Assembly: GCF_016744155.1 (NCBI RefSeq)
Contig: NZ_JADGEW010000026.1
Span: 1-64,000, forward strand
DNA from: Amphritea sp.
GTDB lineage: Bacteria; Pseudomonadota; Gammaproteobacteria; Pseudomonadales; Balneatricaceae
Reading direction: 5' to 3'
DNA length: 64,000 nt
The notes under the pieces are model-generated. The model saw only the letters and a program-made list of their open reading frames with translations, did no database searches and was not told the origin of the DNA. The position numbers and the translations under genes were made by a program. Below, piece after piece: positions 1,073 through 31,731 of the stretch; the first letter of the stretch is position 1; the number at the start of each line of letters is the position of its first letter.

Positions 1073-1531
1073 ATGAAAAAATTAATCCAATCAATAGTGT
1101 TAATTACATCTATTCTGCCAATTAGCCTGGTTCAGGCACAGCCCGTTGGCGAAAGAATTATGGAAGGGGTCGAACTAATTCGGAGCAAGTCGCCCTGCGA
1201 CCCTGATTTGGCAATCATCCGTATGCATTACCCAGTGCGCTACATCACTCATTATCCTCAGGAACCCAGTCATGAGCTACGGATCCAAATAAGACATATC
1301 CGCTTAGCTGTGATTGATGAAAGCTCGCAAGACCAACGCGAGTCTACTTCTCCAGAAGATCATGATCTGCTCGACGAGGTTGTTTATGAAGGAGACTTCT
1401 CCGGCGGCCCCTATCTGACTCTGGAGTATAACGAAACCGTTCAATCTGAAGTCATTCAGGGTAGCGATTACCGCACTATCAAAGTGCTGATCTACCCCTC
1501 TAACCGCATTCAGCAAGCTAAATGCCAGTAA
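1073..1531 (+). CDS. Small exported protein of unknown function
   Basis: This 152-residue protein starts 3 bp after the cytochrome stop and has a typical signal peptide (MKKLIQSIVLITSILPI..., probable cleavage after LVQA near residue 22). The mature part holds two Cys, one near the middle (SPCDPD) and one two residues from the end (AKCQ), which could form a disulfide. It is rich in acidic residues and beta-prone stretches. I do not recognise the family. Its place between a multihaem cytochrome and an outer-membrane barrel suggests a periplasmic accessory role. The start has only a weak Shine-Dalgarno sequence, so translational coupling to the cytochrome gene is likely. Confidence 0.75.
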   Translation: MKKLIQSIVLITSILPISLVQAQPVGERIMEGVELIRSKSPCDPDLAIIRMHYPVRYITHYPQEPSHELRIQIRHIRLAVIDESSQDQRESTSPEDHDLLDEVVYEGDFSGGPYLTLEYNETVQSEVIQGSDYRTIKVLIYPSNRIQQAKCQ

Positions 1532-1558
1532 TCCGACATTTAAACCGAGTAAAACATA

Positions 1559-14695: not shown

Positions 14696-15157
14696 ATGAG
14701 AACGGTGGGTAAAGGTATGAGATCAACAATTTTGGTTATTGATTCATCTCCTTCTAACCAACAGAAAATTTTCAATTGGTTAAGACCCACCGGGAATCAA
14801 TTATCTTTCGCCAAAGACTTACACTCTGCGATGAGGATTTTGAACCAGAACCAGCCTCAACTGATAATTTTTTCAGTTGCACAGCCTGGAGTTTCTCCTA
14901 AACGACTGATCAGAAGATTAAATGCCAGAGCACCTATGGCAAAGCTTATCGGGATTCTGCCCGCTGCAGGACATCCGGTTAAATCTACCCCTGAATTTGC
15001 GCAACTGATTGATGCTTTTCTAATTGCACCTTTGTGCCAGGAAGAAGTACTGATCAATGTTTCGCAACTGCTCAGATTTCAACGTCTAAGCATGGAAAAC
15101 AGCTATCTGAGAGAGGAGTTAGCGTTTTCAACGCTGGCAGCACACTGGCATTCATAG
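14696..15157 (+). CDS. Receiver-like protein lacking the phospho-acceptor
   Basis: The 153-residue protein follows the receiver fold (TILVIDSSPSNQQKI at the start). The phospho-acceptor Asp is replaced by Ser60 (LIIFSVAQPG), and the conserved Lys-Pro near the end reads APL. It is therefore a pseudo-receiver, perhaps a protein-protein regulator of the kinases encoded upstream. The ATG at 14696 lies 14 bp after a GGGGGG tract. The in-frame ATG at 14717, preceded by GGTGGG, would trim 7 residues and is equally plausible. The SCO gene follows after 11 bp. Confidence 0.75.
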   Translation: MRTVGKGMRSTILVIDSSPSNQQKIFNWLRPTGNQLSFAKDLHSAMRILNQNQPQLIIFSVAQPGVSPKRLIRRLNARAPMAKLIGILPAAGHPVKSTPEFAQLIDAFLIAPLCQEEVLINVSQLLRFQRLSMENSYLREELAFSTLAAHWHS

Positions 15158-15168
15158 GGGGTTTTGCC

Positions 15169-15846
15169 ATGAACAGGACGTACTTAACACCAGCAATGAA
15201 AATTGCTTTGGCAGCAACGCTTTTAACCATTTTCCACCTACCATTACAAGCAGATGAAATGGATCATAGCAGCCACCAAAAGCACGCTATGACCGCTGAA
15301 TCAGATGACCCACATGCACAACATAAAGCAATGATGGCAAGTTCTGATAAAGACAAAGTCAAACGCAGCAACCAAACTTATAATGTCCCTCCACTGACAA
15401 TGGTTAATCAGACATCAGATGCAGTGAATATTCAGCAACTGTTGAATAGCGACAAACCGATGATGGTTAATTTTATTTTTACCACCTGCCCTACGATTTG
15501 CCCCGTTCTAAGCTCCACATTCTCAGTTGTAAACCGTAAGCTGGCTGAAGAGAAAGAGCTTACTATGATCTCAATATCAATAGACCCTGAGGAAGATACA
15601 CCTGCCGCTTTACAACGATACGCCAGGAAATTTGAAGCCAGAGACAACTGGATTTTTATCACCGGAGCAATAGAAGACAGCATCGAACTTCAAAAAGCTT
15701 TTGACATCTATCGTGGTAGTAAAATGAACCATGAACCGGTCACTTATCTGCGATCCAGAGCTGATAAACCCTGGACGCGATTAGATGGTTTTCCCAGCAG
15801 CGAACAGCTGATTAGCGAATATCACCATATGAAAATGGGTCATTAG
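15169..15846 (+). CDS. SCO1/SenC-family copper chaperone
   Basis: This exported 225-residue protein has a signal peptide (cleavage near LQADE, residue 25) and then a His/Met-rich stretch (HSSHQKHAM, HAQHKAMM) likely to bind copper. The thioredoxin-like SCO domain carries C107-PTI-C111 and a distal His188 (MNHEPVTY). SCO proteins deliver copper or reduce Cys ligands in copper enzymes. Here the likely client is the multicopper oxidase encoded downstream, an inference from context. GGGGG precedes the ATG at 15169; the frame extends upstream to 15034 but overlaps the preceding gene. Confidence 0.92.
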   Translation: MNRTYLTPAMKIALAATLLTIFHLPLQADEMDHSSHQKHAMTAESDDPHAQHKAMMASSDKDKVKRSNQTYNVPPLTMVNQTSDAVNIQQLLNSDKPMMVNFIFTTCPTICPVLSSTFSVVNRKLAEEKELTMISISIDPEEDTPAALQRYARKFEARDNWIFITGAIEDSIELQKAFDIYRGSKMNHEPVTYLRSRADKPWTRLDGFPSSEQLISEYHHMKMGH

Positions 15847-15859: not shown

Positions 15860-17500
15860 ATGAATAGACTAAAGCCTTTTAAGAACTGGGCTGTTTTGCC
15901 GGTTATTCTGATGCTAACAATGCCGAGTCAGGCTCAAGAAAGCCAAAAAAGTCTCCAGCTGCAGGAAGGTCGCTCGCTGTTTGTATCAGGCCTTTCCAAA
16001 GATGGCACGCCAACCGTAGCCATTAGTCAGGGTCAACCATTAGCCGGAGAACTATTTGCCTGCGTCAACTGTCACAGACATAGCGGTCTAGGCACCAGCG
16101 AAGGGGGATATCAGATTCCAGATATTACCGGCCCTACCCTGTTTGCTCCGATAGAGGTAAGGCAGAAAGAGCTGTACGCCGTGCGAACAGAGGGATTCTA
16201 TACACGGCCAGCCTACACCCGTGAAACCCTGCGCAAAGCTATTACTGAAGGTATTGGAGCCAGCGGCAGACCATTAAGTAAAATTATGCCTCGCTACCTG
16301 TTCAACCAGTCTCAAACAGACGCATTGATCGACTATATTAACAGTCTGGATTATTCCCAGCCCCCGGGTGTCGGTACTGAGAACCTGCAACTGGCCACCA
16401 TCATTACTGAAAACACTGAACCCGCCAAAAAACAGGCGTTTCTGACAACATTCCATCAGTTTTTTAAAGAGAAAAACGCACAGACACGCCATGAAGTAAG
16501 GCGAGTAAAATACTCCCCCTGGCATAAAAACTGGCAATACGATAACTACCGAAAATGGAAACTCAATGTCTGGGAGCTAAAAGGCGATCCCTCGACTTGG
16601 TTTGACCAGCTGAAGCAGTATTATGATAGCAACCCCGTATTCGCCGTTGTCGGAGGGTCGAGTGAGGAAAGCTGGCAACCGATTGATCATTTTTGTGAAG
16701 CTCAACAACTCCCTTGCCTGTTTCCAGACACCGATCTTCCGGTTCAGAAACCGGGCCATTACAGCCTCTATTTTTCAGCGGGCATGAACCTTGAAACGCG
16801 CCGAGTTATCCATTATCTGAAGCAAAATCCTCAGTTCACAAATATCATCCAGCTGGTCGGAGAGGACTTTCGCAGTCAGTTCGCCGCCAATGATATTACA
16901 AAGCGAACAGCGGCACTTAAGCACCCGATAAACGCCACATCGATAAGCTTGGCAGGCAGTTTAAAAGGCACTCTTCGCATTCCTGAGAATGATGCTAATA
17001 CCTTGTACCTGCTGTGGCTGACAAACGATGAGTTACAGAATTTACCCGTAGATTTCGCACACTCAAAATCCCCTTTATTACTATCATCGACTCTGCTACA
17101 ACGGCAATTTGATCAAATTCCCGAGCATATTAAACATCAAAGCTGGCTGATTCACCCCTTCAGTTTACCCAGTGAACCTAGCCACAACGTTCGCAGCAGA
17201 GCCTGGCTGAATGCCCGTGGAATCAAAACCCCCTATCTAAAACTTCAATCCAATACCTACCTGTCACTCAGTATTCTCACTGAAGCGATGATGCATATTC
17301 GAAGTAATTTTTCTCAGGACTACCTGATTGAACGTATCGAACATATGTTAGAGAACAGCCCGGAAACCTCCGTATACCCACGTCTTAGCTTAGCACCTGG
17401 CCAACGCTTTGCAGCCAAAGGAAGTTATCTAATCCCTCTCGAAAAAATCAACAGCAGCAGTGTTCAGGCTCGATCATACTGGGCTGTCCCTGAACACTAA
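15860..17500 (+). CDS. Cytochrome c fused to a periplasmic-binding-like domain
   Basis: The 546-residue exported protein has a signal peptide (cleavage near SQAQE, residue 26). A class I cytochrome c domain (about 30-170) carries the haem motif C68-VN-CH72 and probable Met ligand M143 (IMPRY). A C-terminal domain of about 370 residues resembles type 1 periplasmic-binding proteins (FAVVGGSSEESWQPI, LPCLFPDTDLP). Such a fusion could couple ligand sensing or substrate capture to electron transfer. It starts 13 bp after the SCO gene and ends the unit. The binding-domain assignment is by pattern and less certain than the cytochrome. Confidence 0.85.
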   Translation: MNRLKPFKNWAVLPVILMLTMPSQAQESQKSLQLQEGRSLFVSGLSKDGTPTVAISQGQPLAGELFACVNCHRHSGLGTSEGGYQIPDITGPTLFAPIEVRQKELYAVRTEGFYTRPAYTRETLRKAITEGIGASGRPLSKIMPRYLFNQSQTDALIDYINSLDYSQPPGVGTENLQLATIITENTEPAKKQAFLTTFHQFFKEKNAQTRHEVRRVKYSPWHKNWQYDNYRKWKLNVWELKGDPSTWFDQLKQYYDSNPVFAVVGGSSEESWQPIDHFCEAQQLPCLFPDTDLPVQKPGHYSLYFSAGMNLETRRVIHYLKQNPQFTNIIQLVGEDFRSQFAANDITKRTAALKHPINATSISLAGSLKGTLRIPENDANTLYLLWLTNDELQNLPVDFAHSKSPLLLSSTLLQRQFDQIPEHIKHQSWLIHPFSLPSEPSHNVRSRAWLNARGIKTPYLKLQSNTYLSLSILTEAMMHIRSNFSQDYLIERIEHMLENSPETSVYPRLSLAPGQRFAAKGSYLIPLEKINSSSVQARSYWAVPEH

Positions 17501-17790: not shown

Positions 17791-20700
17791 ATGTCTTGTT
17801 TCAAAAAGCTTAAACGACAATCCAGTGACGGAGCACATAAAGCAGCATTTGGCTGCTCTCTGCTCTTCGCCAGTATTTTCGCAATTTCAACGGTGCAGGC
17901 TCAACCGGTTAATATAAACGTAGTAACACCGGACCCTGCGAATCCTGCTAACTTTTTGCCCGTGGACGGTTTCCGCTGGCTTATCGAGGAAGACAACACT
18001 TGGGATATCAAACCTGGAGTCCCTCTCGGTGAAACCCTGGCAACAGGCTTTCATAGCAGCTACTCACCACTAGCAGCTAAAGGCGAATCAGCTATAGGCA
18101 ATACTGCTCAGGTTGTATCAGATAACCTGGACGATACCAAACGCTACTTCATTAGCGTTACGCCCCATCAGGGCTATACCATCGGTGGCGCAGAAATTGA
18201 GGCTGGCGATAGTGAAGTTCAGGTAATTGTAAATGCACTGCCCATTCCAACAGCGCAGTTCTCAGTATTCGTCTTCGAAGATTTCAGTCCGATCAACGGT
18301 GCACCAGACCTGCCTGAAGAAAATCCGGCAATCAGTGTTAACCCTTCCCGTATCAATGAGCCAGATCTTGGCCACTTTGATCCAACGCAATTTCATATCG
18401 TTGTTGAAGAAGCGGGTGGTCGTTACGGTGCCACTGGCGGACCGGTAACTCAGGACGCTTTCGGTAACCCTCTGGGTACTGATTATCTCTATGATGCTCA
18501 GGGCAATGCCGTCTTAGATATCGATGGGGCTCCCTCGGTAGTGACAATGGGTGACGGTATTATCAACCCAGCCGCCGACGGTAGCGTGCTGATAAAAAAC
18601 CTGGCACCTGCTAAGTATGGCATTCTAATCACGCCGCCTGCAGGCGGAGGCTGGGTTCAAACCTCAACGATCGAAGGTAGTAAAGTCATCGACATTTGGC
18701 CGTCGGCTAACGAACCTTCTTACTTCACTGAGTTCGGCCCTCCAGGGTTCCATGCATTTGTTGGCTTCACTAAGGAAAGTGAAGATACTGCATTCAAAAC
18801 AGATAACGCCGGTAGCGCGACAATTCTGGGACAGGTCATGAACAACCATATGACCCGCCCACCGGAGTCTGGTTTTTTCAATGGCGACCCCTTCCCAAGT
18901 TGCTGGGTTGGTCTGAACCGCACCGGTGGTCAGACAGCTATTGACGTCCAACCATGCGATGAAAACAGTAACTTCACCTTTAACAATATTCCTCCTGGCA
19001 GCTACAGCGTAGCTATTTGGGATGCCAACCTTGATGTTGTTATTGCACAGCAGACGGTCACCGTGCCTAATACACCAAATGCCGTTATCGATCTGGCTGA
19101 TATTGCAGTATTCGGCTGGTTCGCCAAGCTCAGTACCAGCATATTTAACGACATGAACCAAAATGGTTTTCGCGATCCAGGTGAAACAAATCTTGGGGCT
19201 GACTCCTCTGCTGTCAACCTACGCTTCAGGAACGGTACCATTTATCAGTCTTTTGCTGTCGATACCGAAGGTGAAGCACCATTCGATGAAATATTCCCAT
19301 TCTTCCACTGGATAGTCGCCGAAGTCGATTTCGCAACATTGAAAGCGACAGGTGTTACCTATGTAGTGGATAACGGTGGCGAAGTACGCCCTGATAATGG
19401 CTGGGATGACCCAACTTTTGATAAGTTGAACCCACAACCACAGTTCTGTACTCAAGCACGTATCGATATTGCAGCGGATGCCGGCGATGCAGCTTGTGTT
19501 GGCGCAGCAGTTGGTGATCCTGCCATTAACCCTAATACGGCTAACAATCTGTCGACGACATTAACAGGACCAGTACTAACATTAGGTATGCAGGGTTTCC
19601 TGGGCCAGACAAGCCGTCTGGAATTCGGTAAAACCTTCTACGACTTTGCTTCCAAAGAAAACGGTGGCGTCTCCGGGATGGTCTTCTACGCAATTACACG
19701 GGCAGAAGATGACCCTCGCTATGCAGCTGCCGAAGAGTGGGAACCTGGTGTACCTCGGGTACAGCTAAACCTATACCGTGATGCGCTTAACGATGACATC
19801 ATTGATAGCGCTGCCGGTGGCAATGTCAGCACCAACGCATTAACCGGTGCATCTGAACATGTTCGCCCAGACGTTGACCGCTATCCACTGGGTAACTTCC
19901 CAGGTACAGAAGATACCGACCACAACGGTAACGGCACATTCGATCTCGGTGACGCTATTCAGGTAACCTGGACCGATAGCTGGGATGACTCAAACCCAAC
20001 CGCTTGTCAGGGTGACAACTTTACAGCCCACCCAGAACTGGCAACTCAAGGCGGTGACTTTACAACGGACTGTCACGATGGTCTGCGTAATTTCAATCAG
20101 GTCACCAACGGCGTCTTTGACGGTGGTTATGCCTTCGATTCCTATATTGATGCGACTACAGGCGAAGAAATCGACGGTTTACCCGTTGGAAAATATATCG
20201 TAGAGGCCGTTACTCCTCCAGGCTACGAGCTGATGAAAGAAGAGGATCGTAACGTCGACTATGGCGACAGCTATACTCCTGCGCCTCTGCAACTGCCACC
20301 TGAGTGTGTCGGTGACAATCACATAGTTCCTCCTTACATGAGCTATCAGACCGACGGCAATGGTAACCCTCTAGTTGGCACAACAGCTGATCCAGCACCA
20401 TTTGCCGGACAGAACAAGCCATTTTGTGATCGTAAATCAGTAGCACTAACCCGCGGCAAGAACGCTGCAGCGGACTTCTTCCTGTTCACCGACGTACCCA
20501 TTGCTGCTCATGTAGTGGGTGGTATTCTGGATGACATTGCTAACGAGTTCGACCCTAATTCACCAAACTTCGGTGAAAAGTATGCACCACCATGGCTACC
20601 TGTTTCTTTCCGTGACTGGACTGGCCGTGAGATCCTGCGTACCTATTCCGATGAATGGGGTAAGTTCAACGCACTGCTGCCTTCAAGCTACTCTGTGCAT

Positions 20701-23700
20701 CTACCCATGCCTACAGGCCTGTCACCTAACATGATTACAGCCTGTATGAATGACGCCAGCCCAGTTTTCAATTCGGTGTCTGGTCGCTTAGAGAAAGATC
20801 CATTCCATAATCCTCAGTACAGCCAGTTCTGTTATACCTTCCAGTATCTGGCGGGTTCCACAACCTACCTGGATACTCCGGTAATACCTGTATCTGCGTT
20901 TGCCGGTCCAGACCAGTTCCCACTGGATTGCGCCCTGCCTACAGCAACACCTGGTATCTATACAGTTAACAGCAATAGTCTTGGAGGTCCTGTAGCCGCT
21001 ATTGGCGAGACAGTGACTATCACATCTCAGGGTGCGGCTGTTGAAGTTGCAAACCCAGAGTACGATAGTACAGCGTCTACGACTAAGACTATCCTGAGAG
21101 ATTACAGTTTCGGAACATCCGGCACTGTATCTCTGAATGGTACTGATATTCCTGTTGCTAGCTGGAGCCCAGACACTATTACGTTTGTTGTTCCCGTCGG
21201 TGCATCTACCGGTCAATTGGAAGTTATTAGTGCTGCGGGCGTTGAATCAGTTAACGCTGTAACCCTTAACATTGTTACCCCTGGTGACAATGTGGTTCAC
21301 GTTTACCCTTCTAATAGCCTGACCGATACGCCTATTCAGGATGCTATTGATGCGCTTACCACTCAACCAGGTGATCTGATTCTGGTTCATCCAGGTGATT
21401 ACCATGAAATGGTCATTATGCATAAACCGGTACGCCTGCAAGGCTTCGGTGCAGCATCCACGACTATAAACGCTGTCCGGGCTCCGGCTGCCAAGCTAGA
21501 TACCTGGCGCGAGAAAGTCTACAACATGGCGGGTGTTGAATACGATCTGCTACCAGGTCAGGTACTGGGCGCGGCTAACACTGCTGGCCAGCTACCAGTC
21601 TTCGGCAACGAAGAAGGCCCTGGTATTCTAGTACTAGGTAACATTGGCGAATACGCTGCCAGCCAGTCCCGTATCGATGGTTTCGGTATTACTGGCGCCG
21701 TTCAGGGCGGTGGTATTCTGCTCGGTGGCTACATCGAAAATATGGAGATCAGTAACAACGATGTCTACACCAATTCCGGTAACTTCGGTGGTGGTATCCG
21801 CGTCGGTTACCCAACCCTGACCAACACTATCAATGATGCTTTGGTCCATGTTGATGCTGACAACAACAATGTCAACATACACAACAACCAGATCAGTCGA
21901 AACGGTGGTATGGGTGGTGCCGGTGGTGGTATAGCACTCTACACAGGTAGTGATAACTACCAGATCACTGACAACATGATCTGCGGTAACTTTGCTGCCG
22001 GTAACGGCGCTGGTATTGGTCATCAGGGCCTGAGTAACAACGGTCTTATCGCTGATAACACAATTGCTTACAACCAGTCCTTTACTCAGGGTCTGGAGAA
22101 GCATGGTGGTGGTATCTTCTTAGGTGGTAAGGAAGGCCTGGAAGGCGCTAACGGTGTTCAACAAACACCAGGTAGCGGGTCAGTCCTGATCGAAGGCAAT
22201 ATGATCATGGGCAACCAGGCTGGCGCTGGTAGCGGTGGTGGTATTAGTCTGGCGTTTGTTAACGGTGCTGATGTAGAAGCTAACCCTTTGCTTAGCAGTC
22301 TATGGCACAACATCAAACTGTATGACAATATCATTGTAAATAATATGGCTGGTCGTGATGGTGGCGGTGTTTCCATGCATGATGCCAGCGCTGTAAGCAT
22401 GATTCATAATACCATCGCTTATAACGACAGCACTGCAACCGTTGCTGCTACTATTAACCCTGCTTTGAACGGTATTAGCGACTCTACACCTCAACCGGGT
22501 GCAGGTATCGCTTCCCATCGTCACACTGCAGCACTGGCAACTTCAGCCGCTCAAACCCACTCCGATCCAGAGCTGGTAAACAATATTATCCTGCGTAACC
22601 GCAGTTTCTTCTGGCGTATAGATACCCTGGCCTCTCCACAGGTCTTTAGTCTGGTACCTAACATCGCCAACAATGAAGCACCGGTTTACAGCGATATCGC
22701 CGTTGTAGATGATCTTGGACTGTTCCTAAATCCGAAGAACTCTCTGCTAACTGATATCCTTGAAAACGCAGGCTATGCAGGCAATCAATTAGCTGCAAAT
22801 ACTGATGTAGTCTTCACCGATCCCCTTGCAAATGGTCAGCCTGGCCAGACTCTGGTTATGCAAGAACAGACGACCAACATCAATGTTGCAGCCGCCTTGG
22901 ATGAAGGAGGCAATTTCATCGATGTTCGCTTTGGCCCGCTAACTCTGGATACAGCCCTGCGTGGCAACTATCGCCTGGCTGACAACGCCAGTAACGACGC
23001 AATCGATAATGGTTTAATCGATATCTTGGTTAGCAACGACAATCTGGTTAATGATGATTTCTACGGTACACCACGTTATTACAACGGCGGCCCTGAAATC
23101 GGCGCAGAGGAACTACCCAACGGCATTCTGACAACGCCAACCGCAACACCTCTGCCTGTTGCTGTAGATGACATTCGCCGAGTTGTTCGTTCCGGTCCTG
23201 CAGGTGATCTTCAGGCATTTACTCTGAATATCAACAACCTGCTGCGTAACGACATCGATGCGACTGGCTGGGGTAATGCTGCACCTGTTGTTGGCAGTGA
23301 AACCGGTGGTAGTGTCTTAACCTGGGGTTCACCAACCGCTAGAAAGTTCACGCTGCGCACGCCAGCAGGGCGTCGTTCAGTAGGACAGTTTAGCTTCCAG
23401 TACAAGGCTTCTCACGACCCTGCCGCTAATGCTGCAACCGTGGTGGTGAACAAAGATATTTCTGTTCGCCGCGCCTTTGCCCGGGTCCGTAACAACGGTG
23501 ATGTGCGCTGGCGCTTCAACGGCTGGACAACCTTCCCTGCCGATACTCGCATCCGCTTGTATATGAATGGTAATGCCTCTGGTACTCCATTTGCTGACTG
23601 GGATCTTGATCGAGCCGATGGTCGCTGGATCTACGCTGAAAACCAAGGTCCAAACCCAACCGGGGTTACTGAAGTAAGTGTTCGAATCGGTAACCGTACA

Positions 23701-23730
23701 CTCAAACATATTCCACTGGATATCCGATAA
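17791..23730 (+). CDS. Giant secreted multidomain protein with beta-helix
   Basis: The 1979-residue protein has a long signal peptide (cleavage near VQAQP, residue 38). The N-terminal 1000 residues hold prealbumin/SdrD-B-like Ig modules, with calcium-loop sequences such as NDMNQNGFRDPGE and DHNGNGTFDLGD. An IPT/TIG-like domain follows at about 1068-1165. A right-handed parallel beta-helix at about 1167-1600 has repeats such as GGGI...ISNND and IADNTIAYN. A C-terminal beta domain spans about 1787-1979. No multicopper oxidase His motifs were found. As first gene of the sigma-54 operon with three cupredoxin genes, it is probably a scaffold or partner of the oxidase and a substrate of the type II system. 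Function is inferred. Confidence 0.85.
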   Translation: MSCFKKLKRQSSDGAHKAAFGCSLLFASIFAISTVQAQPVNINVVTPDPANPANFLPVDGFRWLIEEDNTWDIKPGVPLGETLATGFHSSYSPLAAKGESAIGNTAQVVSDNLDDTKRYFISVTPHQGYTIGGAEIEAGDSEVQVIVNALPIPTAQFSVFVFEDFSPINGAPDLPEENPAISVNPSRINEPDLGHFDPTQFHIVVEEAGGRYGATGGPVTQDAFGNPLGTDYLYDAQGNAVLDIDGAPSVVTMGDGIINPAADGSVLIKNLAPAKYGILITPPAGGGWVQTSTIEGSKVIDIWPSANEPSYFTEFGPPGFHAFVGFTKESEDTAFKTDNAGSATILGQVMNNHMTRPPESGFFNGDPFPSCWVGLNRTGGQTAIDVQPCDENSNFTFNNIPPGSYSVAIWDANLDVVIAQQTVTVPNTPNAVIDLADIAVFGWFAKLSTSIFNDMNQNGFRDPGETNLGADSSAVNLRFRNGTIYQSFAVDTEGEAPFDEIFPFFHWIVAEVDFATLKATGVTYVVDNGGEVRPDNGWDDPTFDKLNPQPQFCTQARIDIAADAGDAACVGAAVGDPAINPNTANNLSTTLTGPVLTLGMQGFLGQTSRLEFGKTFYDFASKENGGVSGMVFYAITRAEDDPRYAAAEEWEPGVPRVQLNLYRDALNDDIIDSAAGGNVSTNALTGASEHVRPDVDRYPLGNFPGTEDTDHNGNGTFDLGDAIQVTWTDSWDDSNPTACQGDNFTAHPELATQGGDFTTDCHDGLRNFNQVTNGVFDGGYAFDSYIDATTGEEIDGLPVGKYIVEAVTPPGYELMKEEDRNVDYGDSYTPAPLQLPPECVGDNHIVPPYMSYQTDGNGNPLVGTTADPAPFAGQNKPFCDRKSVALTRGKNAAADFFLFTDVPIAAHVVGGILDDIANEFDPNSPNFGEKYAPPWLPVSFRDWTGREILRTYSDEWGKFNALLPSSYSVHLPMPTGLSPNMITACMNDASPVFNSVSGRLEKDPFHNPQYSQFCYTFQYLAGSTTYLDTPVIPVSAFAGPDQFPLDCALPTATPGIYTVNSNSLGGPVAAIGETVTITSQGAAVEVANPEYDSTASTTKTILRDYSFGTSGTVSLNGTDIPVASWSPDTITFVVPVGASTGQLEVISAAGVESVNAVTLNIVTPGDNVVHVYPSNSLTDTPIQDAIDALTTQPGDLILVHPGDYHEMVIMHKPVRLQGFGAASTTINAVRAPAAKLDTWREKVYNMAGVEYDLLPGQVLGAANTAGQLPVFGNEEGPGILVLGNIGEYAASQSRIDGFGITGAVQGGGILLGGYIENMEISNNDVYTNSGNFGGGIRVGYPTLTNTINDALVHVDADNNNVNIHNNQISRNGGMGGAGGGIALYTGSDNYQITDNMICGNFAAGNGAGIGHQGLSNNGLIADNTIAYNQSFTQGLEKHGGGIFLGGKEGLEGANGVQQTPGSGSVLIEGNMIMGNQAGAGSGGGISLAFVNGADVEANPLLSSLWHNIKLYDNIIVNNMAGRDGGGVSMHDASAVSMIHNTIAYNDSTATVAATINPALNGISDSTPQPGAGIASHRHTAALATSAAQTHSDPELVNNIILRNRSFFWRIDTLASPQVFSLVPNIANNEAPVYSDIAVVDDLGLFLNPKNSLLTDILENAGYAGNQLAANTDVVFTDPLANGQPGQTLVMQEQTTNINVAAALDEGGNFIDVRFGPLTLDTALRGNYRLADNASNDAIDNGLIDILVSNDNLVNDDFYGTPRYYNGGPEIGAEELPNGILTTPTATPLPVAVDDIRRVVRSGPAGDLQAFTLNINNLLRNDIDATGWGNAAPVVGSETGGSVLTWGSPTARKFTLRTPAGRRSVGQFSFQYKASHDPAANAATVVVNKDISVRRAFARVRNNGDVRWRFNGWTTFPADTRIRLYMNGNASGTPFADWDLDRADGRWIYAENQGPNPTGVTEVSVRIGNRTLKHIPLDIR

Positions 23731-23798: not shown

Positions 23799-25055
23799 AT
23801 GAACAAGAAAGCAATAAGTCTGATGGTCAGAACCGTTATTGCCGGTGCGATGATCAGCAGCGCGGGCATCGCCAGCGCTACCGTCTATTCACAATGTCCC
23901 GGCGACCTGAACGGCGATGGTGACAATATTGATGCCGGAGAAAACTCAACGGCAAAATGTATGCACTTAACCGGTGGTGATGGTTATATTCAAATGGCTG
24001 ATGATAGCCCCCACCCCTTATATATGTTCGGCTTTGCTGATTTAACCGGCACCCCTGATGATCAAATCATGACAGAAGGTGTATTAGCTGCGGAGTTCCC
24101 TGCCCCTAATATCGTACTAGACCAAGGGGAAGAATTTTACCTAACCCTGTCTAACGTAGGCATGGTAATGCGGCCAGACCTGTTCGATCCACATACCGTT
24201 CACTTCCACGGTTTTCCTAACGCATCTTCAATTTTTGATGGTCTACCGGATACCGCTGTGTCCATCAACATGGGTGCAAGCCTGACCTATTACTACAATG
24301 TGCAAGAACCCGGCACCTATATGTATCACTGTCACGTAGAGGCAACTGAGCATATGCAGATGGGTATGTTGGGTAACCTATATGTGCACCCGGCGCAAAA
24401 TAAGAACTATAGCCCGGCGGCTCCACTGGAGTACCCCGTGGGGTCAGGACGGCAATATCACAAATTCGTATACAACGATGGTGATGGTTCCACCGGCTAC
24501 GATGTTGAAGTACCAATCCAGATGGGCTCTTTCGACTCCGCTTTCCATGATGCCAGTGAATCAGTGCAACCTCTACCTTTCGCAGAGATGGCTGATAACT
24601 ACCCGATGCTGAATGGGCGGGGTTATCCAGACACTGTTATTCAAGGTGATCTGCCCTCTGTTGATATTCACCTAACCGATGGACAGCCATTCAAACCTGG
24701 CCGGACAACACAAAAGGTTTCTAGCCATATTGAAGCGGACCAGGGTGAAAAAATATTAGTCCGTCTGTCAAACCTGAATGTCACCCGTTTCTACTCTCTG
24801 AATACTCTGGGTATTCCGATGCAGGTAGTCGGGGTTGGTGCGAAACAGCATATCGGGCCCACCGGTAAAAAACTGTATTACAAAACCAATTCCGTCACTC
24901 TTGGTGGCGGTGAGGCGCTCGACATAATGCTGGATACTGCTGATGTCTCACCAGGCAAATATTATCTTTACACCGGTAATTTAAATTATCTGAGCAATGG
25001 TAATGAAGACTTTGGTGGAATGATGACCGAAATCATAGTCAACGCACCTATCTAA
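23799..25055 (+). CDS. Multicopper oxidase subunit 1 (type 1 copper and half of the trinuclear site)
   Basis: The 418-residue protein has a signal peptide (cleavage near IASA, residue 27), then a calcium-loop motif DLNGDGDNIDAGE and two cupredoxin domains. Domain 1 holds H132-xx-H135-x-H137 (HTVHFHG) and H177-C178-H179, with H185 and M190 in the same loop. H132, C178, H185 and M190 fit a type 1 copper site, with a loop two residues longer than in classic enzymes. H135, H137, H177 and H179 give half of a trinuclear cluster. Domain 2 lacks ligands. The missing four His are found in the next gene. RBS AAAGGAG precedes the ATG. Confidence 0.9.
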   Translation: MNKKAISLMVRTVIAGAMISSAGIASATVYSQCPGDLNGDGDNIDAGENSTAKCMHLTGGDGYIQMADDSPHPLYMFGFADLTGTPDDQIMTEGVLAAEFPAPNIVLDQGEEFYLTLSNVGMVMRPDLFDPHTVHFHGFPNASSIFDGLPDTAVSINMGASLTYYYNVQEPGTYMYHCHVEATEHMQMGMLGNLYVHPAQNKNYSPAAPLEYPVGSGRQYHKFVYNDGDGSTGYDVEVPIQMGSFDSAFHDASESVQPLPFAEMADNYPMLNGRGYPDTVIQGDLPSVDIHLTDGQPFKPGRTTQKVSSHIEADQGEKILVRLSNLNVTRFYSLNTLGIPMQVVGVGAKQHIGPTGKKLYYKTNSVTLGGGEALDIMLDTADVSPGKYYLYTGNLNYLSNGNEDFGGMMTEIIVNAPI

Positions 25056-25079
25056 GTTGAGCAGGCAAGGAGAACTATT

Positions 25080-26438
25080 ATGAAATTATTACGCAGCTTT
25101 GCCGCGCTGACCAGCACTCTGGTGCTGACAGCCGCCAGCTGGACGGCGCAGGCAGAGATAATCGGCATCGAGGGTACTACCACCGATGGCCACCAGAAAA
25201 TCTTTAACCTTGAAGCTGGTAACGCCGCCATCAGCACACCTGATGGTGACAGTCTTCTAATCTGGGCATACGGCGATATGGATAACTCAGCATCAGCAGT
25301 GCAATATCCAGGTCCGACAATTATTGTCCATGAAGGTGATGCGGTCACGATAAACCTGACGAACAAAGATATCGGCGAGCCCGTATCTATTGTGTTCCCG
25401 GGACAAACCAACATCGCAGCTGTAGTTTCCAATGACCTTGGTATAGACGGCACGGGCGATCGGGTAGTACTGACAGAGGAAGCCAGTATGGGTGAAACTG
25501 TCACTTATAGCTTTACTGCCAGTAAGCCTGGTACCTACCTCTACCACAGCGGTTCAAATCCTGATCTACAGGTTGAAATGGGGTTAACCGGTGCCATGAT
25601 CATACGTCCTGCTGTCAACCCTGACACCCAGGCATATAACAGCGCAGACACTACCTATGATCATGAATACCTTTACTTCCTGACTGAGATGGATCCCTCT
25701 ATCCACCAGGCAATGGATTTTGGCCTAACGCCAGATACCAGTAACTATAAGCCGGTACTCTGGTTTATGAATGGCCGTAATGGCCCCGATACCTTGTTTG
25801 ATAACAATGTCGGCTGGATGCCTCATCAACCTTACAGTTCTCTGACTAGAATGCACCCCGGTGACAAAGTCTTGTTACGCATTATCGGAGCTGGCCATGA
25901 TATGCATCCTCTGCATACCCATGGTAACCACTTCTTGCAGGTTGCCCGTGACGGTCAGGTTCTTACCAGTGATCCAGTCAACGTAAATACCGTCGGTGCT
26001 GACCTGGCCTTTAGTGATTACACTCAACAGGTTCTACCTGGCGCAACTTACGATGCCATTTTCGAATGGACCGGCAGAAATATGGGCTGGGACATCTATG
26101 GTCATACCGATGGTAGCGGCGCTCTTTGTGATGGTTTGCCAGGCCCTAGCAACGGAACAGACCCGGTATCCTTTGAGGATTGCCGATACCACAACGTGCC
26201 TGTCCCCGTTACGCTTCCGGAAAATCTTGACCTTACTTTCGGTGGTTTTTACAGCGGTAGTCCCTTCCTCGGCGCCATGGAGTCTCTGCCTCCCGGTGAA
26301 GGTGGACTGAACCTGAACGGTGGCCTGTTCTTCATGTGGCATTCCCACACTGAGAAAGAGCTGGTCAATAACGACATATTCCCAGGCGGCATGATGACCA
26401 TGCTGATTATTGAACCACCTGGCGTACCAATCCCTTAG
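25080..26438 (+). CDS. Multicopper oxidase subunit 2 (other half of the trinuclear site)
   Basis: The 452-residue protein has its own signal peptide (cleavage near AQAE, residue 24) and two cupredoxin domains. The first is degenerate (TYLYHSGSN in place of an HxH motif). The second carries H276-xx-H279-x-H281 (HPLHTHG) and H421-S422-H423. Ser replaces the type 1 copper Cys, so this chain has no type 1 site but supplies H279, H281, H421 and H423 for a trinuclear cluster. Together with subunit 1 the full set of eight trinuclear His and one type 1 site is present. The genes are 24 bp apart, with an AAGGAG ribosome-binding site. Confidence 0.9.
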   Translation: MKLLRSFAALTSTLVLTAASWTAQAEIIGIEGTTTDGHQKIFNLEAGNAAISTPDGDSLLIWAYGDMDNSASAVQYPGPTIIVHEGDAVTINLTNKDIGEPVSIVFPGQTNIAAVVSNDLGIDGTGDRVVLTEEASMGETVTYSFTASKPGTYLYHSGSNPDLQVEMGLTGAMIIRPAVNPDTQAYNSADTTYDHEYLYFLTEMDPSIHQAMDFGLTPDTSNYKPVLWFMNGRNGPDTLFDNNVGWMPHQPYSSLTRMHPGDKVLLRIIGAGHDMHPLHTHGNHFLQVARDGQVLTSDPVNVNTVGADLAFSDYTQQVLPGATYDAIFEWTGRNMGWDIYGHTDGSGALCDGLPGPSNGTDPVSFEDCRYHNVPVPVTLPENLDLTFGGFYSGSPFLGAMESLPPGEGGLNLNGGLFFMWHSHTEKELVNNDIFPGGMMTMLIIEPPGVPIP

Positions 26439-26474: not shown

Positions 26475-28904
26475 ATGAATACCTTGAGATACTCCGCTTT
26501 GCTAATCGGATCCCTGATGCTGACATCTGGTTCGGTTCAAGCGGTAACCTACGACATCTGTGTAGGTACAACATCAACAATAGTCCCGTCGGGTGATGGT
26601 TCACCTGATATAGGGATTCCAATGTGGGGTTATGGTATAGAAGACGGAGGTAGCTGCAGTAGCGCTTCCGTACCTGGACCACAAATCATCGTGCCTGAAG
26701 GCGATACCTCACTAACAATAAATCTGCGTAATACACTGACAAGTGCTGCCACCTCGATAATGATTCCTGGACAAGGCCTGCCTGATATAGGCGGTGTTCC
26801 GGTAACCTTTACCGATGCTCAGTCGCGCCAACGGGTTAGCTCATTTGTTTCTCAGGTGAACTCCGGCGGCGGTACTGGCACCTATACCTGGAATAATATC
26901 AGGCCAGGCACTTATCCCTATCAGTCCGGCACCCATGTTCAAGTGCAGGTACAGATGGGTCTGTATGGAGCAATGACTCAAAAAGACAGTGCTACCACGG
27001 CCTATCCAGGCATCAACTATGATCAAGAAAGCCTACTGATCTACAGTGCAATCGATCCTGTTCTGCATTCAACAGTCGATGCCGGAAACTACGGACCAAC
27101 TGGCACTATGACCAGTACCATTAACTATCAGCCTAAATACTTCCTCGTGAATGGCCAGCCTTATACTACAGGTAGCTTACCTGCAGATATCGGTCCTTCA
27201 GGCAGTACTACGCTATTACGAATGATCAATATGGATCTGGATACCCATGCACCAATGCTGCTGGGGGGCTACATGGATGTGATAGCCGAATCAGGCTATC
27301 CATATCCGTACCCTCGTCGTCAGTATTCAGTGAATTTGGCTCCCGGACAGTCCAAAGACGCTCTACTGACTCTCGGTGAGGGCTCAACGGTACTATCGCT
27401 GTTTGACCGACGTCTGAATACCACCAATGCCGGTGGCACCGGTGGTGGTTTGGTGAATCAGTTCTCAGTTTCGGGTAGCGCAGCGGGTACTGATCCATTG
27501 TATTACTTCTCGCTGTTCAGAGGACTAAATGCTGGCGGAGTAACCGCCGTACCTGGACTGGGTAATGTCGAAAACCGAGATATTGTCAGCTATAACCCTG
27601 CCGATGGCACCTGGGCAACTGTACTGGATGGTTCTGACTTCAATCTAGTTCGTTCCAATGGATCAACCATGGCGAACATCGATGCTCTGCATGTATTTGC
27701 TGATGGTCGCATGTTGCTGTCGTTCGACACGCCAACCATTGTGCCCGGAGTCGGTGGGACCGGTGTTGTCGATGATTCAGATCTGGTGATATTTGATCCT
27801 TCACTGACTAGTAACAGTTTCAGCATCGCCTACACTGGTACCCAGTTACAACTGACCAGTGGTGCTGAAGATATCAATGCACTCAGTCTTGATGTTAACG
27901 GTGATCTGCAGGTTTCAACTATCGGTAATGTCATTATCGATGGTGTGACCATCGCCACGGATGAAGATGTTATACGCTTCAGTCAGGCAACCCGAACCTG
28001 GGAAGTGATGTTTGATGGTAGCGATCTAAGCACTGACTTCACGGCCAACGCTGCAGATATCGATGCATTATCGCATCCGGATGCAAATCAGCTGCTGATG
28101 AGCATTTTAGGCAATAAAAACCCGCTTGCGGGGGTTAATGCTAGGGATGAAGATGTACTGCTTTACAGCGGCAGCTTCGGCCTTAACAATACGACTGGTC
28201 TATTGGAGACCCGGTTGGATATGACGGCTGTCACTGGGGCTTTACCTGGCAATGCAGATATCAGCGCAATGAGCTGGAGTAACGGTTTGCCATACGATAA
28301 CAGCCCGCCAATACCTGCTGATGACAGCTATTCGCTGGATCTGCGGCTTAATCCGACACTCATTGTTACTGCACCCGGTGTACTGGCAAACGATATGGAT
28401 CCGGACATGAACAGCCTCTCTGTTCAACCGGCAGTTGTCACCACTACGCTAGGCGGTAGTCTGGATATCGCTATCAACGGTAGCTTCACTTATACACCAG
28501 CGATAACCGCTGGAGTTGATAGTGCAGACTACACAGTGATCGATGGGGTTGGTGGTTCAGAAGTGGGAAGTATTACCTTCAATGTTGAGACCTCAGCGGC
28601 TCCAACGAATGAACCTCCTGTTGGTAAAATTGACCGGGTATCTACGCCTAAAAATATCACTCTGGTGATTGATGTACTGGCGAACGATACCGATACCACC
28701 GGCGTAATCGATCCCGCATCTGTTGTGATCACTTTGCAACCTAAGCGTGGCGGTACAATCAATGGTATCAATACGTCTACCGGCGAAATCACCTTCACTC
28801 CTGCAGTAAACTTTATAGGTACTGATGTGTTCAAGTACAAAGTTAGTGATGACGGTGGTCTTACTTCTACTGCGGTGAAAGTCCGTGTCAACGTAACCAA
28901 CTAA
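26475..28904 (+). CDS. Degenerate cupredoxin protein with propeller-like and Ig domains
   Basis: The 809-residue protein has a signal peptide (cleavage near VQAV, residue 23) and two cupredoxin-like domains in which copper ligands are lost (TYPYQSGTHVQVQVQMG in place of an HCH loop; HAPMLLGGYM in place of HPxHxHG). A central region of about 280 residues has repeats around DIDAL/DINAL and DEDV, perhaps a beta-propeller. Two C-terminal cadherin/Ig-like domains follow, the last (about 715-809) close to the last domain of the subtilase at 29704. It may be a structural third subunit, giving six cupredoxin domains in all. It is the last gene of the operon. Confidence 0.82.
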   Translation: MNTLRYSALLIGSLMLTSGSVQAVTYDICVGTTSTIVPSGDGSPDIGIPMWGYGIEDGGSCSSASVPGPQIIVPEGDTSLTINLRNTLTSAATSIMIPGQGLPDIGGVPVTFTDAQSRQRVSSFVSQVNSGGGTGTYTWNNIRPGTYPYQSGTHVQVQVQMGLYGAMTQKDSATTAYPGINYDQESLLIYSAIDPVLHSTVDAGNYGPTGTMTSTINYQPKYFLVNGQPYTTGSLPADIGPSGSTTLLRMINMDLDTHAPMLLGGYMDVIAESGYPYPYPRRQYSVNLAPGQSKDALLTLGEGSTVLSLFDRRLNTTNAGGTGGGLVNQFSVSGSAAGTDPLYYFSLFRGLNAGGVTAVPGLGNVENRDIVSYNPADGTWATVLDGSDFNLVRSNGSTMANIDALHVFADGRMLLSFDTPTIVPGVGGTGVVDDSDLVIFDPSLTSNSFSIAYTGTQLQLTSGAEDINALSLDVNGDLQVSTIGNVIIDGVTIATDEDVIRFSQATRTWEVMFDGSDLSTDFTANAADIDALSHPDANQLLMSILGNKNPLAGVNARDEDVLLYSGSFGLNNTTGLLETRLDMTAVTGALPGNADISAMSWSNGLPYDNSPPIPADDSYSLDLRLNPTLIVTAPGVLANDMDPDMNSLSVQPAVVTTTLGGSLDIAINGSFTYTPAITAGVDSADYTVIDGVGGSEVGSITFNVETSAAPTNEPPVGKIDRVSTPKNITLVIDVLANDTDTTGVIDPASVVITLQPKRGGTINGINTSTGEITFTPAVNFIGTDVFKYKVSDDGGLTSTAVKVRVNVTN

Positions 28905-29046: not shown

Positions 29047-29142
29047 TGCTTCACCTAAATCACAGAGCAAGACTAATGTCTCCAAAAAACAACATACCTA
29101 AGGCACTGATTTAAAAAGAAAAACAAAACAAAATCAACAACA

Positions 29143-29157
29143 TGGCCTATTATTTGC
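29143..29157 (+). promoter_or_regulatory. Sigma-54 promoter (-24/-12) of the subtilase/gspLMCD unit
   Basis: TGGCCTATTATTTGC has GG and GC 12 bp apart, with TGGC and TTTGC intact. The flanks CA and GTA match those of the promoter at 17663. The predicted start is near 29169. An ATG at 29142 overlaps this element, so it is not the gene start. Confidence 0.78.
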
Positions 29158-29175
29158 GTATATTTTATAAAGCAG

Positions 29176-29198
29176 ACTGTCAGGGAAATAGAGACAGT
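29176..29198 (+). promoter_or_regulatory. 5'-leader hairpin with AGGGA loop
   Basis: ACTGTC (29176-29181) pairs with GACAGT (29193-29198) around a loop containing AGGGA, close to the predicted transcript start. It could stabilise the mRNA or bind a CsrA/RsmA-type regulator. Confidence 0.35.
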
Positions 29199-29225
29199 TT
29201 GAGATTATTACTAGGGGGGAAAGCG

Positions 29226-29687
29226 ATGAACAGCTTTTTCAAGATCAAAAAAAATTCCTGGCTGAACCTAATACTGCTCTGTTTCGCGGTACAGCTTTTT
29301 CAGCCTGCAGTTGCATCTGAGATATTACCAGAGCAAGCACAGACAGCTCTGGAGGAAGAATGGGGTATCAGAGTGATGTCTCTACGCCATTCAGCCGCAG
29401 GTTATATGCTGGACTTCCGCTATCGTGTTACCGACCCGGTCAAAGCAAAGGAAATCCTTAACCGAAAAATCAAACCTCAGTTGATTGTCAGCAGCACCGG
29501 TAATCATTTGCAGGTACCCGCACCATCAAAACTAGGCCCCTTACGTCAGGCATCCAGAGTGCCCAGGGCAGACACAAACTACTTCATCTTCTTTGCCAAC
29601 CCAAGTCGCCAGGTAAAAGCCGGCGATAAGGTAAGTATCCAGATCGGTAAACTGGAAATTTCTGGCTTGAAGGTCAGCAGTAGCTGA
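29226..29687 (+). CDS. Small exported protein of unknown function
   Basis: The 153-residue protein starts at the ATG at 29226 after a GGGGGG tract (29214-29219). The frame stays open upstream to 29142, but that ATG lies in the sigma-54 promoter. A signal peptide (cleavage near AVASE, residue 30) is followed by a soluble domain with WGIRVMSLRHSAAGYMLDFR and a basic C-terminal half. I do not recognise a named family. Being first in a unit with a subtilase and gspL-M-C-D, it may be an accessory of secretion or oxidase maturation. Confidence 0.75.
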   Translation: MNSFFKIKKNSWLNLILLCFAVQLFQPAVASEILPEQAQTALEEEWGIRVMSLRHSAAGYMLDFRYRVTDPVKAKEILNRKIKPQLIVSSTGNHLQVPAPSKLGPLRQASRVPRADTNYFIFFANPSRQVKAGDKVSIQIGKLEISGLKVSSS

Positions 29688-29703: not shown

Positions 29704-31731
29704 ATGAACTCACTTATCCGACCACTCTGCTTTTCCTCTGCACTACTGTTTGCAGCAGTTAGTAACGCAGCTATTGTGTCAGAAGATCTGCAACAGCGCC
29801 TGGACTCAACGGGCAGTTTTGACTCCGTCGCAGTTATTCTTCAATTTAATGACCAGGTAAAAAATCAAAAGGCGCTACGTAAAGTTCGTAAAGCGATACG
29901 TCAACAATTAAGAGCTGACACCGATCTTACGAAAGCAGAAAAAAAGAAGCTACGTAAACTATTACGTTCACAGGTCATCAAGTCTCTGCGTCAGCAACTT
30001 AATACATCCAGAAAAAACCTGGATCCGTTGCTAGACTTTGCAGCCCAAGGGCAGATAAAAGACTTATGGCTAATAAACTCAGTGGCACTTACCCTGCCCG
30101 CCTATATGGTTGAGGCATTAGCTCAATTACCACAAATAAACACGCTTAGATCTGACCTCCTGACGGCAGCGCCAGGACAGATTTACACACCACCTTCTCC
30201 ACCGGAATGGAACCTCGAGAGCATTAATGTTCCAAGCCTTTGGAGCCAGGGTATCACCGGCGATAGTGTTGTGGTCGCGATTATTGATACAGGTGTTGAT
30301 GGTTCTCATCCAGATCTGATTACCCGCTTCCGTGGCGGCAGTAATGATTGGCTGGACATGCATGGTACCAGCACAACTCCAACCGACGGCTTTGGCCATG
30401 GTACCAACGTTACCGGCCTTATTCTCGGAGGTGACAGCTCTGGTACCGCAGTTGGTATGGCACCTAACGCTCAATGGATCGCTGCACGAGTGTTCGACAA
30501 CTCAGGCTACGGATCACTGAGTGATCTGCACGCAGGCCTCCAGTGGGCACTGGACCCCGATGGCAACCCTAACACTGATGATGCACCCGATATTGTCAAT
30601 AATTCTTGGGGGTTGCTCGATACAGTCGATACCTGTAATACTGAATTCCAAGCGGATATACAGTCCCTCAAAGATTCCGGCATCGCTGTTACCTTTGCTG
30701 CAGGAAACTCAGGACCGAACTCCAGCAGCAGCCTAAGCCCAGCCAACTTACCGGGAGTCATGTCAGTTGGTGCAGTAGATAATACTCTGACGGTCGCCAA
30801 CAGCAGTAGTCGAGGGCCATCTCCTTGCGACATAACCGCAGTATTCCCAACGGTTTCGGCTCCCGGCATCGATGTGCAGACCACAGACCTATCCTACGGA
30901 ACAGGCTACCCCGCCACGGCATGGGTCGGCGGTAGCTCATTCGCAGTCGCTCACGCCTCAGGTGTGATGGCACTGCTTAAAAGCGCAGTCCCAACAGCAA
31001 CAGTTGCCAAGATGGAACAAGCCATCCGTGAAACTGCGGTTGATCTTGATGTTCCTGGTGTTGATGGTAATACCGGACATGGCTTGATCGATGCCCAAGC
31101 GGCATTAGTTAAACTTATAGAGATCACCACTCCTCCTGGCCCAACAAATACGGCACCACTTGGAACGGCTGATCAGTATGACGTTGACGAATCCTCAGTT
31201 TTTGTTGTGGCGACCGGCAGCGGTCTATTAAGCAATGACAGTGATCCAGACCAGGATAGTCTTAGCGCGCACCTGATTACACCACCTTTATATGGCAATG
31301 TAGTACTCAACACCGATGGTAGCTTTATCTATCAACACGGTGGCGGCACACAAACTGATATTTTTACCTATGTAGCGAATGATGGTTTAGCAGATAGTAA
31401 TGCAACAACTGTGACATTGAATATTATTCCGACACCCATTGTAAATACCGCGCCTACTGCCGTGAAGGATGTATTTCGTGTGGCGAAAAACAGTACAACC
31501 GTACTGAATATTCTCACCAATGACACTGACGCTGAAAACAACATCAACCCAACATCAATAAAAATAGTACGTCAACCGACTAAAGGAGGAGCTGTTTCAG
31601 TCAATAACAACGGAACGGTCACCTATACTCCTAAGGAAGGTTTCAGAGGACGTGAAGTGTTTAAATATAAGATTTGGGATGATCTGGGCCTTCGTTCTAA
31701 CGCTGGCAAAGTAGTGATACGAGTGAAATAA
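29704..31731 (+). CDS. Secreted subtilisin-like (S8) protease with C-terminal Ig-like domains
   Basis: The 675-residue protein has a signal peptide (cleavage near SNAA, residue 23). A very basic, helical pro-region (about 30-160) precedes the S8 catalytic domain with D195 (IIDTGVDG), H232 (GHGTNVTG) and S412 (GGSSFAVAHASG). The usual GTS reads GSS and the usual Pro after Ala is lost. Oxyanion Asn lies in AAGNSG. Two Ig/cadherin-like domains follow, the last (about 585-675) related to the end of the third cupredoxin protein. It may process the secreted oxidase or scaffold, or be a co-secreted enzyme. It lies 75 bp before gspL. Confidence 0.93.
   Translation: MNSLIRPLCFSSALLFAAVSNAAIVSEDLQQRLDSTGSFDSVAVILQFNDQVKNQKALRKVRKAIRQQLRADTDLTKAEKKKLRKLLRSQVIKSLRQQLNTSRKNLDPLLDFAAQGQIKDLWLINSVALTLPAYMVEALAQLPQINTLRSDLLTAAPGQIYTPPSPPEWNLESINVPSLWSQGITGDSVVVAIIDTGVDGSHPDLITRFRGGSNDWLDMHGTSTTPTDGFGHGTNVTGLILGGDSSGTAVGMAPNAQWIAARVFDNSGYGSLSDLHAGLQWALDPDGNPNTDDAPDIVNNSWGLLDTVDTCNTEFQADIQSLKDSGIAVTFAAGNSGPNSSSSLSPANLPGVMSVGAVDNTLTVANSSSRGPSPCDITAVFPTVSAPGIDVQTTDLSYGTGYPATAWVGGSSFAVAHASGVMALLKSAVPTATVAKMEQAIRETAVDLDVPGVDGNTGHGLIDAQAALVKLIEITTPPGPTNTAPLGTADQYDVDESSVFVVATGSGLLSNDSDPDQDSLSAHLITPPLYGNVVLNTDGSFIYQHGGGTQTDIFTYVANDGLADSNATTVTLNIIPTPIVNTAPTAVKDVFRVAKNSTTVLNILTNDTDAENNINPTSIKIVRQPTKGGAVSVNNNGTVTYTPKEGFRGREVFKYKIWDDLGLRSNAGKVVIRVK

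Follow-up and report, generated by a model that had tools for sequence, protein, structure and literature searches.

The 64,000-nucleotide window analysed here (contig NZ_JADGEW010000026.1 of assembly GCF_016744155.1, positions 1 to 64,000, from the 4.15 Mb genome of an Amphritea sp.) carries four consecutive plus-strand genes in its list of open reading frames (ORFs): D, which encodes a large exported protein, and A, B and C, which encode cupredoxin chains. Only domain 1 of A and domain 2 of B (hereafter A1 and B2, and likewise for the other domains) retain copper-ligand sets, so that together A1 and B2 supply one complete multicopper oxidase set. It is probable that A, B and C form a heterotrimer of diverged two-domain oxidase chains with one working centre at A1–B2. 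This divided-centre reading is preferred because the ligands are found only on A1 and B2, they are fixed in distant hosts, the histidines of B2 align with those of the oxidase 3g5w, A always occurs with B, and the predicted folds are confident. From these data we infer the contact between A1 and B2, the copper content, the trimer, the oxidase activity, the role of D and the substrate.

Division of the copper ligands among the chains

Chain A (23799–25055, plus strand, 418 amino acids) is a two-domain cupredoxin chain, whose domain 1 holds a type 1 copper site and four trinuclear histidines and whose domain 2 is ligand-free. Its ligands, read from the sequence and the homologue rows, lie in two motifs on the plus strand: H132 (type 1) with H135 and H137 (trinuclear) at 24192–24209, and H177-C178-H179, H185 and M190 (type 1 and trinuclear) at 24327–24368. 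The best matches of A by identity are three Amphritea records (78–83%). Chain B (25080–26438, plus strand, 452 amino acids) has the opposite constitution: domain 1 is ligand-free, and domain 2 holds four trinuclear histidines, within the motifs H276, H279, H281 (25905–25922) and H421-S422-H423 (26340–26348), identified in the same way. Chain C (26475–28904, plus strand, 809 amino acids) has two cupredoxin domains (about 26475–27449) followed by Big_9/cadherin-like repeats, and is without copper ligands. Both A and B are above the Pfam cut-off for multicopper oxidase families, and C passes that of Cu-oxidase (23.0 against a cut-off of 21) and falls just under that of Cu-oxidase_3. By eye, a signal-like N-terminal stretch is seen on each of the three chains, being of Sec type on A and B, and GGAG stands shortly 5′ of each ATG.

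The initial annotation had described A and B as two subunits, with a type 1 site (H132, C178, H185, M190) and trinuclear histidines (H135, H137, H177, H179) on subunit 1, and H279, H281, H421 and H423, with Ser422 replacing the type 1 cysteine, on subunit 2. All these residues were found to be present. That reading overlooked C, a B paralogue without ligands located directly 3′ of B, and the large D upstream. It was right in taking A and B as two genes: a frameshift or a broken single gene is ruled out, because B has its own signal and ribosome-binding site and an A–B fusion occurs in none of the 144 loci that have both genes.

The domain relationships were clarified by profile comparisons. 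Among the domains 1, the probabilities were 99.3% for A1–B1, 98.2% for A1–C1 and 100% for B1–C1; among the domains 2, they were 99.5% for B2–A2, 99.8% for B2–C2 and 99.3% for A2–C2. The comparison of A1 with B2 gave only 7.8%. By these profiles the domains 1 of the three chains are mutually homologous, and likewise the domains 2. No ligand occurs in B1 and C1 at the places matching the A1 ligands. Over the first half of B2, the part spanned by the comparison, A2 has no histidine in the aligned region, and C2 has none at the H279 and H281 places and often one at the H276 place. In the list of conserved histidines, a pair of the H421/H423 type is absent from A2 and C. The most divergent chain is C, with a median identity of 0.43 against 0.57 and 0.52 for the other two, and it is the sister of B in all three of the trees described below.

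Conservation and linkage across loci

The ligands were counted in 124 distinct rows for each of A and B, all of at least 150 bits (145 A loci and 151 B loci). The sources were 80 loci retained of 127 relatives, plus searches of further genomes; the counts leave out the window's own loci (L001–L004) and weaker rows, the two-chain family described below among them. In A, H177, C178, H179, H185 and M190 are kept in all 124 rows, and H132, H135 and H137 are histidine in 122, the two others (L022 and L125) being without that region. In B, H279 and H281 are kept in 123 rows, the exception (L088) being cut, and H276 in 122. H421 and H423 are kept in 119 rows: the five lacking them are at a locus end (L049, L088) or stop early within longer loci (L030, L053, L098). 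The serine at position 422 is found in 117 rows, and the remainder consists of the five short rows, one Asp and one Asn. Absent ligands are thus confined to rows that begin or stop short, and the pattern is not due to chance. In addition, E184 of A, which adjoins the type 1 histidine H185, is invariant (124 of 124), and E181 occurs in 115 of the 124 rows. A glutamate beside the type 1 histidine is a feature of ferroxidases.

The genes are also closely linked. B is present in all 145 A loci, and A was never found without B; A is present in 147 of the 151 B loci, the other four (L019, L023, L024 and L135) ending there. C is present in 134 of the 144 loci with A and B, and nine of the ten loci lacking it have fewer than 550 bases after B. 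The distances among homologues are correlated between A and B at 0.82 (108 loci), and at 0.62 for A–C and 0.66 for B–C, with a permuted maximum of 0.30. Among the top 100 inter-chain pairs by mutual information, 18 are A1–B2 pairs against 9.6 expected, and 3 are A1–C2 pairs against 5.9 expected. Over all domain pairs, the mutual-information signal is weak and mixed.

Predicted folds

A and B share a reading frame, with TAA and 24 bases between them. Since A, B and C share one frame in the window, a tethered read-through construct could be made, extending from residue 28 of A to residue 325 of C through TAA and TAG. The fold of A+B+C (36 rows, 12 with C) gave a mean predicted local distance difference test (pLDDT) score of 81.8 and a predicted template modelling (pTM) score of 0.84, and that of A+B (41 rows) gave 84.2 and 0.86; the low-confidence parts are mainly in the linker and signal stretches. 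This level of pTM suggests that the relative placement of the domains in the models is confident. An alignment of 145 rows, composed of single A, B and C rows and the read-through, was discarded, as its consensus put the B and C rows on A.

In a Foldseek search with A+B+C, all six domains were matched in sequence order to six-domain proteins at ranks 1–18, namely ceruloplasmin, factors V and VIII, and MnxG (E values of 9e-46 to 4e-35). The superposition of these matches was poor: the template modelling (TM) score was 0.19–0.21 by query and the root mean square deviation was 33–37 Å. The TM score of A+B against ceruloplasmin was 0.26–0.28. The low TM scores and high deviations indicate that the order of the units differs from that of ceruloplasmin, where consecutive units would set A2 against B1. 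Such a ceruloplasmin-unlike order is what a ring of the order B-A-C would predict for these models.

By sequence, 3g5w is the best PDB match of both A and B, and 2zwn, a two-domain laccase, was also matched. In the alignment with 3g5w, domain 1 of 3g5w contains HCH, and HAIHTHG and IHDH of its domain 2 stand opposite HPLHTHG and WHSH of B2. This alignment fits a type C two-domain oxidase, which we take 3g5w to be.

A two-chain family with the same division

A second family, in which a B-like chain lies beside an A-like chain, was found in the loci L014, L015, L016, L020, L162, L164 and L167. The B-like chain has a twin-arginine signal, a domain 1 without the ligand set and a domain 2 with four histidines, while the A-like chain bears the type 1 site and four histidines in its domain 1 and shows no evident signal. 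The division was clear by eye in 7 of the 9 pairs, the pair in L170 being less canonical and that in L171 unclear. The locus L166 has two A-like chains with no B-like one in view. At E ≤ 1e-40, the A-like chain was found in 7 of 143 genomes. The B-like domain 2 of L164, L170 and L171 carries HCH instead of HSH or HLH, without a subsequent type 1 histidine pattern. In L171 (positions 1–4840), on an Arthrobacter plasmid, the pair occurs near two genes, one for a metal transporter of the Nramp family and one for a transcriptional regulator that depends on metal.

The twin-arginine translocation (Tat) system exports some heterodimers that carry a signal on one partner (PMC10924467). If such hitchhiking holds for the two-chain pair, the presence of the signal on one partner only implies that the halves must meet before export. 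For the three-chain family, the two Sec-type signals on A and B suggest assembly after export.

Whether the division arose by one splitting event or by two was examined with trees, in which A′ and B′ denote the two-chain family and A, B and C the three-chain family. The full tree of 70 rows separated {A,A′} from {B,B′,C} at 99/96, the bootstrap not having settled. When the ligand positions and their surroundings, 47 columns in all, were removed, the LG+F+G4 model separated {A,B,C} from {A′,B′} at 66/92 (Shimodaira–Hasegawa-like approximate likelihood ratio test/ultrafast bootstrap), and a site-heterogeneous model grouped {A,A′} again at 94/78. The trees conflict on one versus two origins of the division.

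Proposed arrangement and alternative explanations

The proposed arrangement is as follows. A, B and C would be three diverged copies of one two-domain multicopper oxidase chain, joined as a heterotrimer in a ring like that of the homotrimers, in which each trinuclear centre would sit where domain 1 of a chain meets domain 2 of the adjacent chain. Only one of the three centres would have been retained, with A1 (the type 1 site and four histidines) placed against B2 (four histidines). The ring order would be B-A-C, with the other two interfaces without ligands, and C would serve as a structural third unit and as the carrier of the adhesin-like repeats. Electrons would pass from the type 1 copper of A through C178 to H177 and H179 and on to the trinuclear centre, where O2 would be reduced. 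D probably anchors the complex outside the cell, and the likeliest job would be the extracellular oxidation of a metal, for example Fe(II) or Mn(II). A fuller picture is more tentative and falls somewhat short of probable: a "ceruloplasmin in three pieces", that is, an obligate heterotrimer in which a single ancestral centre of the three survives, through divergence and not fusion, and which is spread over many bacterial phyla and bound to a giant extracellular scaffold as a mineral-facing metal oxidase, together with a two-chain Tat cousin that exports its signal-less half with its partner.

The initial annotation had placed one copper centre across two exported chains. The division of the ligands, their conservation, the linkage and the folds support this part, but the unit probably comprises three chains (A, B and C) together with the scaffold-like D. 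Its idea of a centre shared between chains is likewise supported, but homotrimeric two-domain oxidases already share their trinuclear sites between protomers as a rule (PMC13151041). What is new is that the chains differ and carry complementary losses.

Several points weigh against the heterotrimer with its centre at A1–B2. The tether between the chains may favour contact in the models, the A1–B2 contact itself is deduced by elimination, and the low TM score to ceruloplasmin may arise from other arrangements too. The A–B distance correlation is also explained by common inheritance. In the mutual-information ranking, A2–B2 pairs number 24 against 14.8 expected, and pairs at the two remaining ring interfaces show no enrichment (A2–C1, 5 against 8.1; B1–C2, 4 against 6.2). 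The locus L150 has A and B and 1.2 kb after B, with no C at 50 bits. Finally, the record titles point to sulfate reduction or another probably anaerobic way of life in many hosts, which an O2-reducing role explains poorly.

The L150 case bears directly on the alternative that the enzyme consists of A and B only, as a dimer or an alternating A/B ring, and that C is a separate adhesin descended from the same fold. The confident fold of A+B by itself (pTM 0.86), the lack of a visible C in the two-chain Tat family and the greater divergence of C point the same way. However, C lies 3′ of B in 134 of 144 loci, most of the remainder having little sequence after B; it is sister to B, and both of its cupredoxin domains are retained; and the fold of A+B+C is also confident. 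We regard the two-chain composition as unlikely. Still less credible, indeed very improbable, is the absence of any shared centre, with A carrying electrons through a blue type 1 site, B being a separate His-rich metal-binding protein, and the two being neighbours by chance. Type 1 sites can function alone, and copper content and the A–B contact are deduced here; but A and B each have four trinuclear histidines, kept in all rows reaching them, which neither job needs, A always occurs with B, the A+B fold is confident, and the same division recurs in a second family.

A different kind of alternative leaves the divided enzyme as proposed and changes its job to that of a laccase, a Cu(I) oxidase or a cell-surface O2 scavenger. 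This is a serious possibility, lying just below an even balance. Two-domain oxidases include laccases (PMC13151041), SCO1-like genes occur near 18 of the 80 loci, and O2 removal could help the many hosts that are sulfate reducers or likely anaerobes. Against it, Slit_1812-1818, a similar cluster of Sideroxydans lithotrophicus ES-1, was higher in late magnetite cultures than in Fe(II)-citrate cultures (PMC12016527). Thiobacillus, Gallionellaceae, Geobacter and Nitrospirae are also among the hosts, one two-chain relative has the Nramp-family transporter and metal-dependent regulator genes nearby, and the invariant E184 of A beside the type 1 histidine is ferroxidase-like. An extracellular metal as the substrate to be oxidized is offered as a possibility that comes close to even.

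Comparison with known systems

According to PMC13151041, two-domain oxidases are trimers, the trinuclear centre takes histidines from two protomers, and in type C the type 1 site is in the first domain. The present chains resemble type C in having two cupredoxin domains per chain, a type 1 site and HCH in A1, and four B2 histidines aligning with 3g5w; by analogy, the trinuclear site is expected between two protomers (PMC13151041). They differ in that the type C enzymes are homotrimers with the whole ligand set on each chain and three sites, whereas here the set is split over two chains and the third has none. No chain carries both a type 1 site and the four domain 2 histidines: A is without the domain 2 histidines, and B and C are without the domain 1 set. 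The enzyme would thus function in the manner of a type C two-domain oxidase without belonging to that class, since no single chain has the defining ligands. Among the titles and abstract openings of open-access papers listed by searches on a divided site, none describes a two-domain oxidase whose copper site is shared out among non-identical chains.

The six-domain oxidases ceruloplasmin and MnxG share with the present system six cupredoxin domains and, if the proposed centre forms, one trinuclear site. Here, the six domains are encoded by three ORFs and lie in three chains, not in one polypeptide, and their spatial order is unlike that of ceruloplasmin (TM about 0.2). Six-domain oxidases are thought to be derived from two-domain chains, with sites lost later (PMC3600357). 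As another candidate, the copper nitrite reductase NirK was rejected: TIGR02376 gave 28.4 bits for A and 44.9 for B against a cut-off of 296.3, and eight histidines are present here instead of a type 2 site.

The Sideroxydans cluster Slit_1812-1818 and similar ones share tandem extracellular cupredoxin/multicopper genes with SCO1 and a cytochrome gene (PMC5566968; PMC12016527). Two of the three cupredoxin proteins of Slit_1812-1818 have multicopper motifs and one does not; there, they are described as separate multicopper proteins (PMC12016527). This cluster probably belongs to the A/B/C family. OmpB of Geobacter and MofA of Leptothrix are multicopper proteins located outside the cell, and their neighbours are mofC-like and SCO1 genes (PMC5566968), but they are treated as single multicopper proteins. 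A multicopper protein of Nitrospina has been compared with the Mn oxidase of Bacillus SG-1 (PMC3578206). The portion of PMC9861301 available to us makes no mention of Amphritea.

Scaffold D and neighbouring genes

D (17791–23730, plus strand, 1979 amino acids) is a large exported protein with an SdrD_B-like match and a weak NosD-like match, and is a probable scaffold. D and A form a single ORF in L051, L059, L072 and L091, where by eye nothing resembling a signal separates them, and C and D form a single ORF in L080. These single ORFs imply that D is likely to be part of the complex.

On the plus strand of the window, C is followed by a small exported protein (29142–29687) with no Pfam match and by a protein with a cadherin-like tail (29704–31731), labelled S8-like (subtilisin-type) by eye. 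Among the 48 loci with more than 5.5 kb after B, a small exported protein lies 3′ of C in 46, and an S8-like relative above 250 bits occurs in 34; the latter occurs in 39 of the 80 loci overall. The 250-bit threshold was adopted because a looser count (51 of 80) was inflated by the cadherin-like repeats of C. Upstream of D, also on the plus strand, are a SCO1/SenC copper-chaperone-like protein (15034–15846; Pfam SCO1-SenC) and an exported protein with one CxxCH (15860–17500), which is mofC-like by layout only. In the flanks, as far as the sequence reaches, SCO1 relatives were found in 18 and CxxCH-protein relatives in 22 of the 80 loci.

In the window, the module lies inside a type II secretion cluster: T2SSK, PilN, T2SSM_b and secretin were recognized by Pfam, T2SSC was just under the cut-off, and GspE, F, H and J were identified from the sequence. 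GspL and GspE relatives were each found in 3 of the 80 loci, and the link to type II secretion is therefore not general within the stretches covered. By the title of a 2006 report by Mehta, OmpB is said to be secreted via an atypical type II system. Two further regions of the window were observed. At 2–3787, a multihaem cytochrome of tandem repeats, truncated by the contig start so that only its end remains (14 CxxCH in 355 amino acids), is followed by a small exported protein and a 742-amino-acid protein with SPOR and TPR matches and, by eye, a barrel-like tail; these genes perhaps constitute an outer-membrane electron conduit near the oxidase. At 36588–44861, 3′ of the secretin gene, a protein of 2757 amino acids consists of cadherin-like and Big_9 repeats.

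Distribution among bacteria

By record, the 80 loci belong to Pseudomonadota (29), Myxococcota (13), Thermodesulfobacteriota (12), Nitrospirota (8), Acidobacteriota (6), Planctomycetota (5), and Bdellovibrionota, the candidate division CSSED10-310 and Chloroflexota (1 each), with 4 unassigned. Most of them come from metagenome bins, so that a phylum represented by one locus only is an uncertain assignment. At E ≤ 1e-60, and with the seed genome counted in each case, B was found in 13 of 297 genomes in the phylum of a Desulfuromonas metagenome-assembled genome (MAG), in 11 of 195, 13 of 198 and 9 of 247 in the phyla of a Myxococcota, a Nitrospirae and an Acidobacteria MAG, respectively, in 4 of 349 in the order of a Gallionellaceae MAG, and in 3 of 5 in the order of the genome G318. 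In the class of the window, at E ≤ 1e-20, B was found in 13 of 369 genomes, its own included, three of them (G035, G045 and G099) through two-chain relatives. A and B together with a giant C-like protein of about 2700 amino acids were also observed on the megaplasmid of Cupriavidus metallidurans CH34 (L168, 11368–23112) and on a Paraburkholderia plasmid (L169, 9779–21213), where all three are annotated as hypothetical.

Implications

If the divided centre is true, the loss of centres happened here without fusion and left the chains free to diverge, so that this evolutionary step would be open to direct study. Where multicopper oxidase genes are annotated as separate enzymes in pairs or trios, they may encode the components of a single enzyme, in which case testing or deleting one gene alone would mislead. 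With iron and sulfur bacteria among the hosts and a higher abundance of a similar cluster on magnetite, the system would be a well-defined candidate for the oxidation of metals outside the cell by a copper enzyme.

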